From Solicoccozyma terricola (lineage: Eukaryota; Basidiomycota; Tremellomycetes; Filobasidiales; Piskurozymaceae), in assembly GCA_001600875.1 (NCBI GenBank), contig BCLD01000013.1:1-64000 (forward strand): DNA of 64,000 bases, in the 5' to 3' direction. The position numbers and the translations under genes are program-made. Under the pieces are notes generated by a model. That model worked only from the letters and a program-made list of their open reading frames with translations, did no database searches and had not been told where the DNA came from. Of this stretch, positions 4,092 through 56,024 are shown piece by piece (the stretch's first letter is position 1; every line of letters begins with the position of its first letter).

Positions 4092-6263
4092 TCAGCCTCT
4101 TCTCTTCCAGCGCGTCCACCATTGTAAGCTGTTTGCGCGGAGTAGGCTCGAAGGAGAAAAATATTGAATAGATCCACCAACGTTCACGTCTTTCGCGGAG
4201 GTAGGCCCAAGGTAAGCCAAACATTGCACGTCTTTCCGTTTGTCTCTCACGGGTACCCAGATGCCTACCACGGCGGTCTGCTTGCAACCCCAACACGCTG
4301 CTTCGATCACCGGGCATCCAGCGGGACTTATGCCATGCCTGTCGAGGTGACCCAAAGTCATGCAAAGTGTTGCGTACTGAGGACCTCGGAGGAGCCTTGA
4401 CCACACACGCTTGTGGAGTCTGGCTGATCTAACGAAGGGCTTGCACAGGCCGATGCAGTGCGGTTCTTCGAGCGAAATCATCAGTTCCAGGCCGGCGCCT
4501 TTGCATCGGTCGAAAGGCAGACCGAGTGCTGAAGTCACGAGTCTGTACACGATGTCATGATAGTGCGAATCTGGAAGGCTCTCCAGGTCGGGCAGAGGTG
4601 GATAGACTTCGTCGTCGAATAACAGTCGATTTGTGATGGTGGCGTCGTCTAACACCGGGTACGCCCACCGCAAAGCAGGAGGGTCCAGATGATTATCCCT
4701 ATAGATCCGCATCACGACTTCGGGCGCAAATCGGTCGAATGCGCTGCGAAATCTGGCAAACAAGTCCGCTCCGCTGGAGTCGCTGAAAACTTGCTTGTAT
4801 GGCGCCGCCCCGGACGAGGTTGACAAGTTGTTCTCGCCCAGCGAAACCAGTGGGATCGACCCTCCACGGACGGGATAAATTCCTCTCATCACGACGCCAT
4901 ATATCTCCCCCGCGTCACGGATGTTGGACTCTCGAAGATACGTCGTAGGCCGCCACAGAACGCCAGCTGCTTGGTTCCCAAACAAGCCCCCAGGTGCAAG
5001 CGTTGCGGGACTAGAATCGAACTTTCCTTCCGCCTGGACAATCGCATTCTCGAGAAGAACAGGCAAGCTCATGTTCCTGTAACCTTCGGGTATTTGGTAT
5101 CCAGGACAGTCGACCCACACGGCGAGGACGTAGTCACGTAGCTTTGTTGCCTTCCGTACTGAGGTTCCCAGCACCCGCAAATTGAACAAGAAGTTGGAAA
5201 ATTGTGCGTTGACATCCTCCCTGGTGTCTTTCGGTTTCCTGCTCTGAAGTCGTCGTGGATTCTCAATTGTGTCTCCTCGCAGGAAACGCGAGATCATCGC
5301 AAGAGGGTCCTCCTGATGGGTCCAATGGGGGTTGCCACGCCCACAATACGCCTGCATCAACTGTATGCTGTGTTCGAAAAGTAAAAGGTTCGCCTTTGTG
5401 AGGACTTCCATGGCATCCTGCGCTGAAGAGCCGGCGTTTATGGCCCTCTGGTACATCAGACGCGAGAAGGGTTCCAGGTGTTCGGACTTTCCTCCTTTGT
5501 TCACGCAGGTGGCCGCTGTATGGGACATTCGCAGCAGAGTGATACGCTGGCTGTATAAGAGCTCTTGCCACGTCCAAAGGCGGTGAAACCACGAGTTTAG
5601 CCCCAACATATTGAGACATCGTAAACCTGAGCGGTATTCTTTGACAACGGATTCGAGCGAAGCTCCAGACTGGCGGGCTTCGACCACCCTCGTTGTGACC
5701 GTCCGAAGACACCCACATACCCCACCAGGCATTAGCGCGACGACGTTCAAGCTGCTGTAGATCAAAGGGATGCTTGCTAAGGTTCCACAGACATCGGCTG
5801 GCTCTTCACGCATGCATAATTGGTCCATCCAGATGCCTCCGTGCTCTTGGGAGAGGCCGACCAAACATCTTTCGAGATCAAGGATGTCCCATTCCTCACC
5901 GAGTTCAAGGCAAACGAGGTCATCGAGCAAGCAATGTGTCACGGAGTGCCCAATTGCGATTTGGCGCCTTTCGAATTCGCCCCAAGTGTACGAAATCGCA
6001 ACGGCCGGACAGTTGGCAATCGGCACTTCGTCGTAATGAATGAAGAGGTGGGGTTCGACGGTTGGGCGTGGGCAGAGAGGGGCTTCGTTGCCACAAAAGG
6101 ATATGTGAGCGATGAGAATCGTGTCGAGGACTGCAGTGTTGGCTCGGAAAGCAGGCCGTCTCGTCAGAAGCTGGTCCCGGGGTAGGCGAATTGAGCCATG
6201 GCGCCCCGATAGCTCGTTATTGTTAAAGTCGTCGATTGAGGAGGTCTTCACCATTTCATTCAA
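4092..6263 (-). CDS. HET-domain protein (heterokaryon-incompatibility-like)
   Basis: A single-exon ORF of 723 codons. Near the N-terminus it carries the hallmarks of the HET domain: AISYTWGEFE at residues 89-98 and GIWMDQLCM at 143-151, with the characteristic Trp-Gly and Trp-x-Asp-x-x-Cys signatures. The rest (about 160-723) shows no second domain I recognise; it is rich in Arg, Leu and Trp and ends in a basic tail. HET domains in fungi trigger cell death or growth arrest after fusion of non-self hyphae, and many HET proteins act in other immune-like roles. The gene sits alone between subtelomeric repeats and a broken patatin gene, a usual home for fast-evolving non-self recognition genes. 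The start at 6263 is the first Met of the frame; a second Met is three codons in. Confidence 0.85.
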   Translation of the reverse strand: MNEMVKTSSIDDFNNNELSGRHGSIRLPRDQLLTRRPAFRANTAVLDTILIAHISFCGNEAPLCPRPTVEPHLFIHYDEVPIANCPAVAISYTWGEFERRQIAIGHSVTHCLLDDLVCLELGEEWDILDLERCLVGLSQEHGGIWMDQLCMREEPADVCGTLASIPLIYSSLNVVALMPGGVCGCLRTVTTRVVEARQSGASLESVVKEYRSGLRCLNMLGLNSWFHRLWTWQELLYSQRITLLRMSHTAATCVNKGGKSEHLEPFSRLMYQRAINAGSSAQDAMEVLTKANLLLFEHSIQLMQAYCGRGNPHWTHQEDPLAMISRFLRGDTIENPRRLQSRKPKDTREDVNAQFSNFLFNLRVLGTSVRKATKLRDYVLAVWVDCPGYQIPEGYRNMSLPVLLENAIVQAEGKFDSSPATLAPGGLFGNQAAGVLWRPTTYLRESNIRDAGEIYGVVMRGIYPVRGGSIPLVSLGENNLSTSSGAAPYKQVFSDSSGADLFARFRSAFDRFAPEVVMRIYRDNHLDPPALRWAYPVLDDATITNRLLFDDEVYPPLPDLESLPDSHYHDIVYRLVTSALGLPFDRCKGAGLELMISLEEPHCIGLCKPFVRSARLHKRVWSRLLRGPQYATLCMTLGHLDRHGISPAGCPVIEAACWGCKQTAVVGIWVPVRDKRKDVQCLAYLGPTSAKDVNVGGSIQYFSPSSLLRANSLQWWTRWKRRG

Positions 6264-12482: not shown

Positions 12483-15400
12483 NNNNNNNNNNNNNNNNNN
12501 NNNNNNNNNNNNNNNNNNNNNNNNNNNNNNNNNNNNNNNNNNNNNNNNNNNNNNNNNNNNNNNNNNNNNNNNNNNNNNNNNNCCCCCCCCCCCCCCCCCC
12601 CCCCACCCCCCAACCCACAGCCGCGAGATCCTGGAAATCGACCTCGACGATATTGTCGGTCCAGGTGGGCAAAACATTGGCCTCGAGTTCCTCAAGCAGG
12701 ATCAGTACGTGTCCAAGTCATGGATGTTGATCGCGTCAGAGCACCTCCGGCAAGGTCGTGGGGAAATGGCAGAGAGAACGCTGGTGGAGGGGCTGGGAGG
12801 TGAGAGCGAGCAGGAACCCGAGTCATGCATCGCACTAACATATTGCACCAACGCACCGCACAGTCTTCCAGCAACGCCAGGATTGGAATGGAATGAGCGA
12901 CGCCTACACGCTGCTGGCGCACATGGCTATCTCGCAAGCCAAGGGTGCGCCGAAGGTGGTTCTGAAGGACGCCAGTGAGTGGATGGAATGAGACCCACCT
13001 TGCCGCGTCCTAACCACCCCCCACCACGCCAGAATACGACACCCGAGCAGAGACCCAAGTCAAGCAGGATTTCTGGCGGCTCGCGCAAGAGCGTCTACAA
13101 AGTGCGGAGAGGTTGGCTGCTCAGGCGGATGGGAACAAGGATCGATCGCTTCGACGTTTACCTATCCTTATTGGACGAAGTGAGTGTGAAGGGGAATGTT
13201 CCACAACGAACCGCCAACCCCCGCCAACGCCCTCTCCCCCCCCACAGTTCTCCTCCTCCTCGCATCGTTCCACTTTGATGAAGCAGAACGTGCCATCAAC
13301 CAAGCTCTCCGCATTCAACCGAACAACCTCGTAGTCCTGATGTGTCAAGGTCGTCTCGGAAATGCTACGAGGAACCCTCAGATTGCGCTCAAGTCGTTCC
13401 AGCGAATTCTCGCCCTCGACCCTGACTTTTCACCGGATCCGAGGGTGGGATTAGGGCTTGCGTTCTGGCAGTCTGGTGACGTTCAAAAGGCAAAGTTGGC
13501 TTGGAGACGTGCGCTGGAGAGGGTGGGTTTTGGATGATGTGGGTAGAAGACGGCGCCCTGCGACTGACCACGCTATACAGGACCCGGAATGTCACGGCGC
13601 TCGTATGCTACTAGCAACGTCAGAGGGCAACGACGCTCGAGACCTCAACTTGACGCTATCCTCCGACAAGAGGCAAGATCTGGCCATCGCGTCGTTGAAC
13701 AGTCTCGTCCAGCTTTTCAACAAGACGGGGAAGACCTCGGCTCCAGCAGCACTGGCGATGGTACGAAATGTGGAAGTCAAGGGTCAGGTGTCGATGGTGA
13801 GTTGGCTTGGGGGCCCCGATCCCACCTCTGGCCATCTTCTTTAACCCGTCCTCTCCTCCACAGGCAATCAAGCTAGTCGAACGAGCCATCCAGTTTTCCG
13901 ACACGATGGCACACACTCGTCGTGGTATTTCCGAGCGAACCAGATTGGCGTACGTCGAGGGTGACATGAGAGGTGTCTCTGCCTACGCGGAACGAGCAAA
14001 GATGGATAAGATTCCTGACATCACGGTGGAGGTGGTGCGCGCTCAGGTGGCCATCCAGCAAGGTGTGTATACGTTGTTTATGCGGTTAAGGGTACACCCA
14101 CTCACCCCCCCCCCCTAACCCCCCCACAGGCAACCAACGAGAGGCACTGGCTATCATGGAAGAGCTGTATAAAAAGGTCGGTCCCACAGCACCCATCGAG
14201 GTGACTTGGCTCTACGCTATGCTCCTGGCCTTCCCATACCCGGGTACGAGTAGCGAGCAACGATCCGCGTGGACGAGGGAATCCCGCGATATCCTCGATC
14301 GACTCCACGAGCAGGTCAAGGCCGCGAGAAATGCTGGACCTACCGCCGCTGCCAAACTACGAGGTCTCGCCGAGGACCCCGAAACGTTCGTGCTGCTAGC
14401 CCGGCTGTGGCAGACGGATGACCTCGACAAGGCGATCGGCGCGTACCAGACGGCGATCTCCATCCACACCCTTCAGCGTGCTGGCGAAGATGCGACCGAC
14501 AACCTCAAACGGTGGAAACTCGACAACAACCTGGCTTCGCTGTATCATTTGCAAGGGAATCTCGAAAGTGCGACGCAGTTGTACGAGGATGTCGTTTCGG
14601 CGATCGCAGAGCCCAAATCCCCGGACGAGGAAGCGCTGCAATCGACGGTGCTCTACAACCTCGGTCGTGCGTACGAAGACGCCAAGGACTATCATCGTGC
14701 CATCGAGGCATATCGAGGGCTGCTCTTCAGGCATCCAGAGTATATTCATGGTGAGTCGTCGTCGTCGTCGTACCTGCACCAGCAACCTGGAGCGCTAACC
14801 CCCCCCCCCCCCCCAGCCAAAATCCGTCTCTCCGAGATCGCCTATGTGTCCGGCCGGATCTTGGAATCCGACTCCCTGCTCAAAGAAGCCAACCTCAGTC
14901 AGCCAAGCGATCTACACCTCCGTGGCTACGTGCAACACCATCTCTTCCGCCAGGGGAATTGGGAGATGCTCGCTCCATTCGCTCAACAATCGCGTGTGAA
15001 ATACCCCGACGACGTTCAGACTTGGTGTATCCTCGGAGCCTGCCACTACCGCGATGGACGAGAGTCCAAGGCGCCGCATAACGATCGGTTGAAGGACTTT
15101 TGCAAATCCGGTGAGGCATACAACCAGGCGTTGGCGGCCGATCCGGCGTGTGCCGTGGCTGCTCAAGGTCTAGCGATTGCCATCGCAGAGGATGCAATGG
15201 CTACCAAGCCGTCGGAACTGCTGGGTGGAGAGGAGATGTCAAAATCGGCGAGACTCAAGAACGCGGACGCAGCGCTGGCCATCTTTAGTCGTGTAAAGGA
15301 TTCGTTGAGTGATGGCAGTGTGTTCGTGAATTCTGGTCATTGTTACTTTATCAAGGGTGATGAGGAGCGGGCGATCGAGTCGGTGGGTGGAGCGAACAAC

Positions 15401-25156: not shown

Positions 25157-27094
<1,938 letters not shown>

Positions 27095-50432: not shown

Positions 50433-51496
50433 TCATATCTTGTGAGCAAAACAAATGCTACAATACCCACTACAAAAATCCTCCCGACAAACCCAATCAC
50501 GGCAAGGACTCGAAGCATGACCAGTCTCGCAAAACATTGTGCCGCATCCTGGAAAGTAACAGACCCCTCCCCTTTCACCGGTCGATTGCTGCACGTCGTA
50601 TCTACCTTTTCAACCCAGGTCGAGGGAATCAGGAGCAGAGGGTTGTCCGAGGTAAAGAGAACTCACAGCATTTGCTTGCTTGGTGTTTGAGGGCATGAAC
50701 GTCGGGGGTGGTTGCGGCTACATAGGTTGCGGGGATGTCCTGGGCTATTAGGAAAAAAACGAACGTTCAACCGTAATTTCACCCAATTACAACACCGAGG
50801 CAACTCGACTCACCTTGTATGCGATATGGTGGTCCTTCATAAGCCCCGCTTTCTGATTCAAGCCCTGTGTGACAGTGACACCTTTGTCAGTGGGAGTGGG
50901 ACTGGGACCGAAACTATCAGTGCTGAAAACTCTCACCTGCAGCTCCTGTCACCAGTTGACAACAAGTTTAATGCATGTGTACAAGAGCATTATTGGCTTG
51001 GTTGCCCGAGTTCTCACCTTCCGTAGAGTACCACTGCTGACTACCATCCCGTTCTGTAGCTAAGGAGTCTGCAAAGCCAAAGCATGACTGTCAATCTGAT
51101 GCATCAAGTATCCCTCTTTACAACATCCACTTACAAGGCAGATCCAAAGATGTGGAAGGGGGGTTGCGGTTTGTGGAGGCGCTCCAAGTACCAGGTCCTA
51201 TGCTGTCTTCATATGATGGTGGGGCTTCCCCCAGGCGAAAGCGGTGATGTCACCTACGTGTCACTCCGACGTTGAGAAGGGAGATTATTTGACTAGTCAC
51301 TTACGAGTTTGCTCGCCCGGCTCAGGGGTTGCGCTTTCTCGACCGTCTATTGGGGAAAGTTGGGTCTGGCATAAGTCTAGTTGTGTGTTCACAATACAGG
51401 GCCGCCAACTCTTCACGGCGAAATAGGTTGATACGGAAATCACCACGACGTGAACTTACCGGTGCTGGTAGACGACGACTCTTCAAAGGAAGGCAT
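50433..51496 (-). CDS. Micro-exon Cys-rich protein, paralog D
   Basis: Eight exons on the minus strand: 51496-51460, 51346-51305, 51206-51135, 51068-51018, 50945-50937 (9 nt), 50864-50814, 50744-50667 and 50605-50433. All seven introns are phase 1 (61-113 nt), and the total gives 170 residues. The N-terminal modules are polar: MPSFEESSSTST, SAST- and Pro-rich pieces, then YSLATERDGSQQWYSTE and GLESESGAYEGPPYRIQ. The last exon encodes the cysteine domain GVCYFPGCGTMFCETGH, then PCRDWVCREDFCSGYCSICF, and stops TGA. No signal peptide or membrane segment is seen. No family is recognised. A TATA box lies 73 bp upstream. The acceptor of exon 3 (51206) has a poor pyrimidine tract and was chosen because it keeps the frame. 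Confidence 0.65.
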
Positions 51497-51568
51497 GATG
51501 TTTGGCTTGCGTATTTGGATGGAGGATATATGGTCATCGATCTTGATCCAACAATCCTTTGGTTCACT

Positions 51569-51578
51569 CTTTATACCC
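51569..51578 (-). promoter_or_regulatory. TATA box of micro-exon gene D
   Basis: GGGTATAAAG on the minus strand, 73 bp upstream of the ATG at 51496. The same decamer precedes paralogs C and B. Confidence 0.6.
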
Positions 51579-51756
51579 CTGTTTGGAAACGGAGTTTCAA
51601 CTGACTCCCTGATATCACCCTGTAGCACCAAAAACGCTTCAAAGGAACAAATACGGATGATGTGCTGACCGCGTTTGGTAGGGTGCAGTAGGGCAGACTG
51701 AAAGGTTTTCTTGCACGCATGTCAAATGACCCAGTTACACATTTTTGCGGTCCAAA

Positions 51757-52451
51757 TCATGTCTTGCGCTCGTGAGTTTTGCAGTGTTTGCAAGACCGAC
51801 AGTTCTCCTTACACCACTCGCAATCACCCCACTCGTGCTCGTTATATGTTTTACATGACTCCTGGCCGCAACCACTACTGCACTTTTCCCCCGCAGATGT
51901 GTATAGACCTATACCCCGGAGCAAGACTGTCAAATTTCTGGCAAGAAAAACATAATGTTACTCACATGGTCCTTTATGCCCTTCTGCAGTTGGAATCGTC
52001 GCAGAAATTGTTGGGGTGATGGTGCCTGTCCTTGCTGTTCAAATTAATTATGGATATCAAGGCCGATCAGCTTTCAGAAAAGTAACTTGCCTCTTACGAT
52101 GGATGGAGGGGATGTGGCTTCACAATGTAGAGCATTTGAGTCAACTGTTTACCGCAGGACTGATTTCAAAAGTCACTCACGATTTGGTTCTGAAGTTATC
52201 GTTACCTCGAAAAGCACATGGATCTCCGGACGACCTGTTGAAATATATTATAAACATCATGGCAACAGCTCTCAATCAGACAACTTGCCTTCCTTAGGAG
52301 GTGTCTCTGTAGGAATTCATGTGATGGGATGTCGACAGTGTCAGTGCCGTGGAACGGACGGATATGGAGTCGTTCGCCACCACTCTAACATACGTGAGCT
52401 GGAACGGCTGAAACTGTTCGTCGGGCAGAGTGAAGCGGGGGAGACAGACAT
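51757..52451 (-). CDS. Micro-exon Cys-rich protein, paralog C
   Basis: Six exons: 52451-52394, 52306-52289 (18 nt), 52234-52181, 52144-52091, 52034-51966 and 51926-51757. They encode 140 residues and all five introns are phase 1. Two introns use GC donors (GCAAGT), and two are only 36 and 39 nt. The N-terminus is MSVSPASLCPTNSFSRSSS, then QTPPKE, GRPEIHVLFEVTITSEPN and a Thr/Ile/Pro-rich module ending EGHKGP. The last exon, 170 nt, encodes GEKCSSGCGQESC, then EHEWGDCEWCKENCRSCKHC, and ends THERKT. This is the shortest copy and the model in which every splice site fits without choosing among close alternatives. No signal peptide is seen and no known family is recognised. Confidence 0.7.
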
Positions 52452-52527
52452 GATGTTTGGTATTTGAATTGAGGTTATGTGGTCTGTCTGAATTCGCTTC
52501 ATCGACTCTTTCTCAACATTCGTCTCC

Positions 52528-52537
52528 CTTTATACCC
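52528..52537 (-). promoter_or_regulatory. TATA box of micro-exon gene C
   Basis: GGGTATAAAG on the minus strand, 77 bp upstream of the ATG at 52451. The flanking leader down to the ATG (CAAACATCATG) is similar to that of paralog D. Confidence 0.6.
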
Positions 52538-52957
52538 GCAGCTTATCATCCAAAAGTCGGAGCTCCAACTTTCCACTCCTGCGATCACCCCAAAGGACCC
52601 AACGCCCAACTTGGAACTTCTCAATAATGCAAGTCCGCCCTGTGTTATCCCGAAGCGCCGTAAAACCGCCATGTATGTCGTAGAGATTCCCTGCCGAAAC
52701 CGGGTTGCTGACCCGAAAGTAAAGCTGTATTATCATCACATGGCTACTTTGCCTCGTCGTACCGCCATCTCTGTGATCCGGCGAGACCACGATAATTGCG
52801 AGACTGCGGGCGGGACTTTTGCCACTTTAAGTGTCGCCCAAGGCAAGAGGGAGCATGATACCTTAAGTTCTCTATTTCACTCGCTGATATGTGATACTGC
52901 AATGGGAGAGAGTATTGACATTCCGCAATTCCCCTCAGCCACTTGATATTTCTCCAG

Positions 52958-54017
52958 TCAAGGCACGATCATACCAAATAGCCCATGAACATTGCACCGT
53001 CGACAACGCGTGTGAATTCGCGCATCGTTACAATACCATTCATCGCAATTCCCCCAAATATGAAAGCCATCTGTACAATACTTCAAAGTGCAGCCCAACT
53101 GGCAATCTTCCTCCGTAGGGTAAAGACCTTTTTCACACCGGACCACAACATTTAACGCTTGTCTGGAAGAGGCAAAGTAGTGCATCCATCACTCACAGTG
53201 CCCATCATGCTGCCCAGTCACTGTAGCTGCTTGAGATCCTCCCTCGGTGGATGCATTGCCGTCGTGAAGGGGGTCTGTTTGATATTTGAATGTTTATAGC
53301 TATGTTTCATATACAGCTCTTGCATGGACCGCTTACCTTGAGGATCTCTTTCTGTTAATAATAATTAAATGCCATACAACATCCATGGACATGAGGGTGA
53401 GAGAATTTGGGGCTTTGCTTTACAAGTCACTCACGTCCATGCTGTTGATCTTGATACATAATAGCAGTATTAGTCGGATTGTCAGCTAAATATTTAGCAG
53501 CACTGGCGCTCGGCAGGAACAACTCGCCTTCTTCGATTAAAGTGATCGCATCATCATCCCAAACATCCCCCGGTATCTCTACGTGTGACCAGGAAATGCA
53601 GACCTTCATAAGTCATTTAACCTTGACAGGTTTGAAAGCAGCAACTTACGTTGGGTCCCAACTGCAAAAAGGACCATGCTGGCTTCTACAATCTCATATT
53701 ACAGAACCTCAGAATCACCCTTCACACTCACTCACCTTCAAGGGTTCCAACTTCATAGGAGTTGTTGGCTGTATCTGTTTAGGTAATATTTGCTTGAAGC
53801 CATGAGCCCGAAGCCTTGGCAACACCGAATGTTCTGAGATGACTCACCTCCAGGCGAAGCCGGTTGGCTCTCTACATCTCCGTTTGTGTGTGTAGTGATC
53901 CCATCTGTTCGATACCGTATCGTAGGAAAATATATTAAAGATCGTGGCAACACGGGACGCTTCCACAGACAACTCACCTTCCTCTGTGTTGGTGTGATAG
54001 TCTGTGCGCCCGGACAT
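52958..54017 (-). CDS. Micro-exon Cys-rich protein, paralog B
   Basis: Eight exons: 54017-53978, 53904-53848, 53774-53736, 53661-53650 (12 nt), 53578-53435, 53351-53337 (15 nt), 53274-53197 and 53127-52958. All seven introns are phase 1 (62-83 nt), and the protein has 184 residues. It starts MSGRTDYHTNTEE and passes through DGITTHTNGDVESQPASPG and DTANNSYEVGTLE. The largest module is PGDVWDDDAITLIEEGELFL. A Ser/Thr module ending GQHDGH precedes the last exon, which gives CLYPTEEDCQLGCTLKYC, then WGNCDEWYCNDARIHTRCRR and a final C-x-V-H-G tail. The acceptors of the 12-nt, 144-nt and last exons were chosen among alternatives to keep phase. The exon order matches paralog A almost one to one. Confidence 0.65.
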
Positions 54018-54105
54018 GCTACGGAAAGCGGATTTGAATTAGGTGGTTTGGTGATTGATGGAGTGACAAGTACGAGCGGCGTCACTCGAGGAATTCCCGC
54101 CGACA

Positions 54106-54115
54106 CTTTATACCC
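54106..54115 (-). promoter_or_regulatory. TATA box of micro-exon gene B
   Basis: GGGTATAAAG on the minus strand, 89 bp upstream of the ATG at 54017, identical to the decamer of paralogs C and D. Confidence 0.6.
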
Positions 54116-54923
54116 AAGGTTGGCAGCACAAGAAAGATTTCCGGAATCCAACATTCGTACCCCGCTCTCCATCTCCTTTCACCAACGCGCTTGAATATGA
54201 TGATTCTGACGTGAGGTATGCGGAAAGCCTCATAGGGCACCCTTTCCACATTTGGAGAGAACCAAACTGAGATGCTGCTTCCAAAATCCTGCGCTTCAAA
54301 TCGTCCCATCGTTCCCTCTGGTTCCCGCAGAAAGCGGACGAGCTACCTTACCGGCGAGATGGCGAGTCCAGCTGTAGCACTATCATGCTCACACAAACGC
54401 TAAGCCACAGCTACAGTCTCCGAGTCCCAGCACCGGCGACTCCTAGATCGTACTTGGAGAGGACGCAATACCTATTACGTTTTGTGCCTGGGTGGCGGTT
54501 TCAAATCATGCGTGACAAGAGGCAAATCATATCATTCATGCAAATAACCAGTCAGTTTACCGTCTCGGACAGCACTGGAGGTGGAACTGGAAGGAAAGAC
54601 ATTCTTTTGATCCCAGTGATCACCCTCTCTGACTTGGTCAAGTAAAACGAATAAGAGAAACGAATAAGAGGAGGGACACAGCAGCGGCAAAGCTCAACTC
54701 AGACGTGTCTTGTTTGGGGCAGCTCTGTAATAAGGTGGATTCACCTGAGGCTTGACTTTCAATCATCCAAATCACACTTCACTGCAACTTATTGACACTT
54801 TTTACTATCCATACGACCTGGGACTGCTGATATTTGCCAAGTCCTAACACCAATTCTCCACTCCCTTGCCCACCGGGAGGAACAAGTAGTGACGGCCGAC
54901 TGCCTAGCAAACCATATGACTTG
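54116..54923. other. Unexplained spacer inside the micro-exon gene cluster
   Basis: About 800 bp between the end of paralog A and the promoter of paralog B. I looked for a further micro-exon gene on either strand and found scattered splice-like sites (for example GTAAGG at about 54351 after a possible short ATG exon) but no consistent phase-1 chain, no TATACCC match and no cysteine domain. It may hold a decayed copy or an RNA. Confidence 0.35.
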
Positions 54924-55900
54924 CTAGGCATTGCATTTTTCACAGTTGCGGTGCGCCGGGCGGCCTCCACACCCTAATTCGCACGGCTTCCATAAGTGTC
55001 CGCTATCGCGAACGTCTTGTACTTGTACACAGACATGGTTAGTGCACGCGGTCTCCCGGATGCATTTGCTTCCTGGCTCAGCGGGGTAGTCGCCTTTTGC
55101 CCCAGAACACTGCGGAGTCAGCCCATTGTCAGAGAGCTGGCAAATTCCACTCACAGTGTCCCACATGCTCAGTTCGATTTGGACCACTGCCCGCTACGTA
55201 GATGCCCGGGTCGACCGCCAACCGCTCCAAAACGCCACTCGCTATTTTCAAAATAAATCAGTCAGTTTGAAGGGGTGATTGCAGCTCCCCCTCCCCCCCC
55301 CCAGGGCACCCCCACTCCCGGCGGGAGAACTCACGTGGAACTCTTCCTGATATTATTCCAAGGTAGGTACAGTCAGTGCAAGGGGAATTGAGGGCTTCAA
55401 AATTCATTTCCATACCATCATGATTTAGCTCCCGGTCAATTACATCGCTAAATACTGTCCTTCCCACAATGTAGAGCAGAACTATTTAGTTGACGTTGAC
55501 ATGTGAGAAAGCAACAAACTTACGTTCGGTCCCTTCTGCAGAATGGGCCACACTAGCTTCTATAATCACACAATACACAACTCTTAGAATCACCCTCTTT
55601 ACAAGTCCAAATAACTCACCTTGAGATGGTTCGTTCTCAGAGTTGAAGCTTGTGCCTGTATAGGTGATATTTTTGTATGAGACATAAGCCAAGTGACCTG
55701 GCAACACCGAAGGTTCCGAGACAACTCGCCTTGGCCTTCGTCTTCGCTTGGGGGTCGGGTGTTGGAGTCATTCGTAGTACCTAACAAACACATGGATGCG
55801 TGAGGGTGAGTGTGAGGAGAAATTGGTGGCGGGTCGCAATTTCTGGGAACTCACCCTCTGTACCTTGAAAGGTGGAGTCATAGCAATCGCCTCTCGACAT
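54924..55900 (-). CDS. Micro-exon Cys-rich protein, paralog A
   Basis: Seven exons: 55900-55855, 55780-55730, 55655-55620, 55535-55524 (12 nt), 55481-55335, 55241-55155 and 55093-54924. All six introns are phase 1 (42-93 nt) and give 182 residues; intron 2 has a GC donor (GCGAGT). The start is MSRGDCYDSTFQGTE, then TTNDSNTRPPSEDEG, TSFNSENEPSQ, a 49-codon module with VGRTVFSDVIDRELNHDGME, and a module ending TEHVGH. The last exon (170 nt) gives CDYPAEPGSKCIRETACTNH, then SGHLWKPCELGCGGRPAHRN and CEKCNA. Exon 4 could instead begin at 55559 (36 nt) without changing phase. The acceptor of the last exon was chosen because it keeps the frame and matches paralog B. No signal peptide is present and the family is unknown. 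Confidence 0.65.
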
Positions 55901-56015: not shown

Positions 56016-56024
56016 CTTATACCC
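56016..56024 (-). promoter_or_regulatory. TATA box of micro-exon gene A
   Basis: GGGTATAAG on the minus strand, 116 bp upstream of the ATG at 55900. It differs from the other three copies by one missing A. Confidence 0.5.

Follow-up and report, generated by a model that had tools for sequence, protein, structure and literature searches.

A gene architecture of many small exons is known from fast-evolving animal proteins. The bicycle genes of the aphid Hormaphis cornu and its relatives, according to the cited passages, carry many unusually small internal exons, almost all of which start at codon position 2; they diverge fast, their homologues often escape sequence search, and N-terminal secretion signals are present in many or most of the encoded proteins (PMC9168663). 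An exon that starts at codon position 2 implies a preceding intron of phase 1. In the micro-exon genes (MEGs) of Schistosoma, as far as the cited text describes them, the exons are short, mostly multiples of three, and hard for automatic annotation, the introns span 100 to almost 5000 bp, the signal peptide is kept, and apolar residues are prominent (PMC10526429). The candidate secreted effector proteins (CSEPs) of powdery mildew are defined, in the passages cited, by a predicted signal peptide and have conserved cysteines, and relative intron position has been used as evidence of their common origin (PMC3582587). A functional micro-exon in a fungus is described in the cited part of a report on Xlr2 of Trichoderma virens (PMC11121469). 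Here, we describe a cluster of four predicted genes, A to D, at positions 50433..55900 on the minus strand of a 64 kb stretch of DNA from Solicoccozyma terricola (hereafter the window). With somewhat more belief than doubt, we read them as four tandem protein-coding genes of one micro-exon family that diverges fast but keeps a cysteine domain at the C-terminus.

By these partial descriptions, the cluster resembles the bicycle genes in its many small internal exons, its phase-1 introns (here by prediction), and its apparently fast divergence, but it consists of four genes in a likely fungus rather than hundreds in an insect, its cysteine pattern is different, and a signal peptide is not evident. 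Bicycle proteins carry a CYC motif, and no C-Y-C triplet occurs in the four models, whose domain shows C-x-Y and CxxC. The likeness to the MEGs, as described in the text cited, lies in the internal exons, of which the curated models have 23, each 9-87 nt long and divisible by three, while the introns of 54-113 nt, the cysteine-rich C-terminal domain, and the signal peptide not evident by hydropathy set the cluster apart. Like the CSEPs, the genes are fungal and fast-evolving with conserved cysteines, and intron position serves as evidence of origin; unlike them, they show no signal peptide evident by hydropathy, and a micro-exon chain is not described in the CSEP passages cited. As the signal sequences of the MEGs and bicycle proteins are not evident here, we do not class the four genes with either group, though they are built alike. 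The parallel with both groups drawn in the preliminary description of the locus, therefore, stands for the size and symmetry of the exons, for intron phase, and for what appears to be fast divergence, but not for the signal peptide (hydropathy maxima -0.85 to 0.44). Its remark that no fungal equivalent is known agrees with the open-access literature, where no fungal family of symmetric micro-exons was found among the matches listed by title and start of abstract.

Gene Models and Splice Sites

A generalized hidden Markov model gene finder was trained iteratively outside the cluster, on 20 stretches (one of which, L009, was all N and two others partly N) and on window positions 1-49500. The training set comprised 51 genes and 246 introns (phases 0/1/2 = 106/72/68) with a median intron length of 70 nt and the donor GTGAGT. 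Intron phase was unweighted in the finder, and in fixed-end runs the start and stop of each gene were given and a short-exon prior was applied. The final models were curated, the sites being picked from those of the finder by similarity between A and B, intron length, cysteine frame, and phase:

Gene A, 54924..55900, minus strand: 8 exons, 7 introns all phase 1, 150 aa; exons 55900-55855, 55780-55730, 55655-55620, 55535-55524, 55454-55416, 55346-55335, 55241-55155, 55093-54924
Gene B, 52958..54017, minus strand: 9 exons, 8 introns all phase 1, 158 aa; exons 54017-53978, 53904-53848, 53774-53736, 53661-53650, 53578-53528, 53449-53435, 53351-53337, 53274-53197, 53127-52958
Gene C, 51757..52451, minus strand: 6 exons, 5 introns all phase 1, 125 aa; exons 52451-52394, 52306-52289, 52234-52181, 52117-52091, 52034-51966, 51908-51757
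Gene D, 50433..51496, minus strand: 8 exons, 7 introns all phase 1, 170 aa; exons 51496-51460, 51346-51305, 51206-51135, 51068-51018, 50945-50937, 50864-50814, 50744-50667, 50605-50433

Each model is open from ATG to stop. Exons 1-3 of A (the rest of which is curated) and exons 1-4 of B are found in both best paths of the finder. Only two versions equal a fixed-end best path: a shorter C with 51983-51966 in place of exons 4-5, all phase 1, which is the best path in both settings, and a 7-exon D with 51053-51018 in place of exons 3-4, which is the best path without codon statistics. Exon 4 of C was included on the grounds of its flanking introns as judged by eye, the one before it having a stretch in common with intron A4 and the one after it resembling intron C2. 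The preliminary description had counted 25 introns and 21 internal exons of 9-147 nt; the curated models revise this to 27 introns, all in phase 1 and 54-113 nt long (one over 100 nt), and 23 internal exons, whose lengths of 9-87 nt are without exception multiples of three. Similarly, last exons of 170 or 173 nt, once given for the whole cluster, are found in A, B, and D, but that of C measures 152 nt. The stretch looks empty, with a single open reading frame of at least 150 aa overlapping 50433-55900, a plus-strand frame of 155 aa at 52479-52946; this is in keeping with the earlier statement that none exceeds about 155 codons.

Of the 27 curated donors, 23 rank no lower than the 29th percentile of those in training. 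GC donors number four, compared with 7/246 in training (P 0.016), and the GC-AG introns include 53527-53450 (78 nt, stop-free) and 55729-55656, both on the minus strand. The doubtful sites, in our assessment, are exon 3 of D, exon 4 of C, exon 5 of A, and the acceptor before the last exon in A, B, and D; in A, the exon 5 donor lies at the 2nd percentile and the last acceptor, AAG, at the 1st. A caution already voiced, that acceptors had been chosen partly by phase, applies to the present models too since phase was among their criteria, and several such sites stay doubtful.

Phase-1 Signal

With fixed ends, the phase-1 share of posterior introns is 0.97 for A, 0.80 for B, 0.92 for C, and 0.74 for D when codon statistics are used, and 0.97, 0.81, 0.99, and 0.92, respectively, when they are not. 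As a null, 371 random ATG-stop pairs of like length elsewhere were tried by the same fixed-end procedure, and the 300 that gave a path had a mean phase-1 share of 0.31-0.32. Best paths with at least four introns in a single phase arose in 2/300 null pairs with codon statistics and in 0/300 without. No null pair (0/300) equaled any of A-D in score and single-phase share together without codon statistics, while 1-5% did so with codon statistics, where real genes are included; in the latter setting the score alone is unremarkable, as 17-35% of pairs score as high as A-D. Among 23 training genes with at least four introns, one is single-phase (phase 0, four introns).

Phase-restricted finder runs with free ends were made in three settings. 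On the minus strand, phase 1 scored 3.3, 5.7, and 8.5, phase 0 never exceeded 0.2, and phase 2 stayed at 0, as did the plus strand of the cluster. In a free scan for single-phase chains over 314 kb (the window and 25 stretches, N included; both strands), B was the only chain above threshold, and a lower threshold added D and two chains from elsewhere. The claim of four tandem minus-strand genes with all introns in phase 1 is thus upheld by the posterior (74-99% phase 1 against a null of 0.31-0.32) and qualified by the curation of the models, by weak acceptors, and by two best paths of mixed phase, so that the observation is partly confirmed and holds in outline.

One further chain from the phase-1 scan, at window 12766-13964 on the plus strand, was dropped, as its phases are mixed once unconstrained. 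Its predicted exons lie just before an open reading frame with TPR matches, and its first three introns are in phase 1 and its last two in phase 0.

Promoters and Strong Donors

The motif GGGTATAA[A/G] is present 82-124 nt before the ATG in 4/4 genes, and TATAA[A/G] at -150 to -40 in 1/50 training genes, which corroborates the shared TATA box reported earlier. The boxes are as follows:

TATA box of A, 56016..56024, minus strand: GGGTATAAG, at -124
TATA box of B, 54107..54115, minus strand: GGGTATAAA, at -98
TATA box of C, 52529..52537, minus strand: GGGTATAAA, at -86
TATA box of D, 51570..51578, minus strand: GGGTATAAA, at -82

The cluster has 11 strong donors (score of at least 7) on its minus strand and 1 on its plus strand, and 260 background windows, some with N stretches, have a mean of 1.9 and a maximum of 9. 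The TATA and donor counts, the likeness of the last exons as protein, and the match between the leaders of C and D depend less on splice-site choice than the models do. The leader match is as follows:

Leader and start codon of C, 52446..52484, minus strand: 76% identical over 45 columns to D 51535-51491, E 0.003

The Cysteine Domain and the Variable N-Terminal Part

The last exon of each gene encodes the C-terminal domain:

Last exon of A, 54924..55093, minus strand: cysteine domain, 8 Cys; the last intron interrupts the codon of the first Cys
Last exon of B, 52958..53127, minus strand: cysteine domain, 8 Cys
Last exon of C, 51757..51908, minus strand: cysteine domain, 9 Cys
Last exon of D, 50433..50605, minus strand: cysteine domain, 9 Cys

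The last intron splits a Cys codon in all four genes, and the domain combines its 8 or 9 Cys with an invariant His and a closing CxxC. Compared as protein in the claimed frame, the last exons give z 7.3 (A/B), 6.6 (B/C), 4.5 (C/D), and 4.1 (B/D); the remaining sense frames give z of at most 2.3 and the antisense frames at most 3.6. Local DNA alignments of the same exons give z from -1.1 to 1.1, and the global DNA alignment of A and B gives 2.2. Being alike in protein and hardly in DNA, the last exons show the pattern that selection on a coding domain leaves, and the final cysteine exon noted in the preliminary description is substantiated in four of the six pairs. Structure predictions of the domain were uninformative (mean pLDDT 44.8 with A first and 42.9 with B first).

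No N-terminal signal peptide is evident in A-D by hydropathy, a measure used here in place of a dedicated predictor; in the region near the start, the Kyte-Doolittle mean over 12 residues reaches at most -0.85 in A, -0.72 in B, 0.44 in C, and -0.56 in D. Since a signal peptide is not evident, the cysteine domain would be likelier to bind metal in the cytosol than to form disulphides, unless the proteins are exported by an unconventional route. We, therefore, favor a metal-binding domain inside the cell, and the label "secreted effector" is unproven for the four proteins. Their N-terminal parts consist of 62-71% S, T, E, D, Q, N, G, or P, and the net charge of the whole proteins is -12 in A, -21 in B, +1 in C, and -10 in D. 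These N-terminal parts show no clear protein similarity among A-D (z -0.1 to 2.5).

The symmetry of the exons leaves room for alternative products. Subsets of the internal exons that keep the frame to the same stop make up 64/64 in A, 128/128 in B, 16/16 in C, and 56/64 in D, and in 13 control genes the corresponding fraction has a mean of 0.36 and a maximum of 1.0. Both A (55559-55536) and B (53685-53662) have, on the minus strand, a second acceptor in frame, 24 nt ahead of exon 4, and retention of the GC-AG intron 53527-53450 of B would keep the frame since its 78 nt contain no stop. These frame-safe subsets, alternative acceptors, and the stop-free intron are predicted openings for isoforms, not evidence of them.

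Divergence of Exons and Introns

A and B were compared at the DNA level, and the following part is alike in both:

End of exon 2 to intron 4 of A, 55490..55731, minus strand: 71% identical over 247 columns to B 53849-53617

This stretch was the only second match in whole-genome DNA searches. The A/B introns 2, 3, 4, and last have z 10.8, 10.8, 7.2, and 4.7, and the splice sites match at introns 2-4, while exons 2, 5, second-last, and last have z 0.5, 0.7, 1.4, and 2.2 as DNA. Thus, four of the six A/B introns compared are clearly kept and most of the exon sequence is not, the reverse of what is expected for ordinary genes. Exons that diverge under selection, or that are swapped as modules, would leave introns better kept than exons. 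As a control for exon and intron divergence in paralogues, the 67 predicted genes offered only one distant pair. Distant predicted paralogues, both on the plus strand, are a gene near 25157 and one near position 200 of stretch L037 (C1:1-10000, the start of another contig), with 34% identity over 182 aa.

Introns are also alike across positions. In a test of 23 of the 25 introns of the models then in use, 10/253 pairs fell at P<0.01 (2.5 expected); three of these are A/B pairs of equal position, and A2/B1 and B1/C2 reach P <=0.001. Similarity of introns at different positions fits duplication of exon-plus-intron units.

Genomic Setting

The window opens contig C13 (894 kb), of which it covers the initial 64 kb, in an assembly of 23.9 Mb in 33 contigs. 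Positions 1-35 are CCCTAA telomere repeats, which places the cluster about 50 kb from a chromosome end. By Pfam, its neighbors include TTI1, a protein with domains of the complex I NDSU1/NuoG type, and a mitochondrial DNA polymerase. The 12 homologues listed for TTI1 include four named proteins, from Rhodosporidiobolus, Trametes, Pilatotrama, and Cerioporus, all of which are basidiomycetes; its identity is 81% to one protein and 31-32% to those of Trametes and Rhodosporidiobolus. By this one neighboring gene, the source is probably a basidiomycete, and an intron-rich one. No Rfam family matched the window. Near the telomere, at 4 kb, an open reading frame on the minus strand (window 4092-6263) has a weak match to HET (heterokaryon incompatibility), E 9e-5.

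Alternative Explanations

The architecture as a whole (genes in tandem, each with a TATA box, symmetric small exons, phase-1 introns, and a cysteine domain in the last exon) is supported by the results above, and several observations weigh against the reading built on it. With regard to the splice sites, the best paths of A and B depart from the curated models in the later exons and in the start of the last exon. Acceptors below the 10th percentile of training acceptors number 9/27 and donors below the 15th percentile 4/27. AAG acceptors make up 6/27 compared with 10/246 in training introns (P 0.002), an excess on the minus strand of 50433-55900 that may come from faulty models or be peculiar to the cluster. 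In A, B, and D, the acceptor before the last exon is an AAG that ranks at the 0-1st percentile, and the last introns defined in this way measure 61, 69, and 61 nt, which is close to the typical size.

With regard to phase, the fixed-end best path of D with codon statistics ends in two phase-0 introns and that of B without them in two phase-2 introns. In one setting, the unconstrained free run turned the start of A into a four-exon phase-0 chain and gave D a phase-0 last intron; in another setting, B received such an intron. In the free single-phase scans, A and C are absent at all thresholds, B and D lack the cysteine exon in the calls, and the lowest threshold also brings up D in a phase-0 form. 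All codon log-odds fall below zero, from -8.8 to -18.3 across the four genes, and the claimed frame of A and of B is outscored by another.

The family relationship has its own gaps, as the A/C and A/D cysteine domains are weakly or not similar (z 2.7 and 0.6), A/B exons 1, 3, and 4 are still partly alike (z 4.1, 3.4, and 4.5), and A/B introns 1 and 5 are poorly kept (z 2.6 and -0.2). Homologues were sought among 5.8 billion proteins, where the full-length alignment yielded 553 word-sharing candidates, none at E 10, and the cysteine-domain alignment 2 candidates and no homologue. The best Pfam match (E 0.048) fails the curated cut-off, and the best match in PDB (E 0.62) is not significant. No further copy was found in the genome with the DNA of A, of B 53300-54040, or of C-D, nor with the B protein or the last-exon proteins of A, C, and D. 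The genome search with the B protein missed the last exon of A, so distant copies could escape detection.

Three other explanations of the locus can be weighed against these observations. The first, an ordinary tandem family that inherited phase 1 from an ancestor with a few phase-1 introns, in which no exon is skipped and the symmetry has no role, overlaps with our best explanation, so the two are not mutually exclusive; taken by itself we regard it as rather unlikely. In favor of such inheritance, several introns are common to A and B, and introns of unequal position also look akin; the 27 introns, therefore, should not be counted as separate events. Nevertheless, the variable number and size of the exons and the better conservation of introns than of exons between A and B are left unexplained by inheritance alone.

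Second, the cluster may have held such genes and now be partly or wholly decayed, which would explain the poor codon statistics and the weak acceptors. The weak sites (9/27 acceptors and 4/27 donors) and the absence of other copies from the genome searches suit this account, but four models open from ATG to stop, 23/27 donors at or above the 29th percentile, and a TATA box in all four genes make it improbable. Finally, that the region is non-coding and the small-exon chains are splice-site pareidolia, drawn from abundant GT/AG sites, is no less improbable: the negative codon statistics, the weak, AAG-rich acceptors, the absence of A and C from free scans, and best paths partly unlike the curated models are what it would lead one to expect, but the null of 300 ATG-stop pairs, the strand-specific surplus of strong donors, TATA boxes in 4/4 genes, last-exon protein similarity in one frame, and the matching A and B splice sites at introns 2-4 all speak against it.

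Proposed Evolution and Implications

If the four genes form one micro-exon family, as we favor, the family may have grown by tandem gene duplication together with duplication of exon-plus-intron units. As all internal exons of the models are symmetric in phase 1, modules of 3-29 residues could be acquired, dropped, or skipped with the reading frame intact. The N-terminal part, polar and probably disordered, would vary freely, while the C-terminal domain with its 8-9 Cys, His, and CxxC would be kept. The most likely role, and the least certain step of this proposal, would be that of a rapidly evolving interaction protein in conflict with a host, a competitor, or in self/nonself recognition, induced from TATA promoters. 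Only tentatively do we extend this to the view that a fungus has independently evolved a symmetric micro-exon strategy, in which an array near a chromosome end gains diversity by duplicating, losing, and skipping phase-1 exons, the exons outpace the introns, and a fixed cysteine C-terminus works inside cells or leaves them unconventionally.

If true, the cluster would be a fungal, convergent case of a gene architecture otherwise associated with animals. Paralogues whose introns are better kept than their exons would provide a direct handle on the gain and loss of symmetric exons. Because such genes easily escape both annotation based on open reading frames and sequence search, other fungal families of this kind may be absent from gene catalogues.

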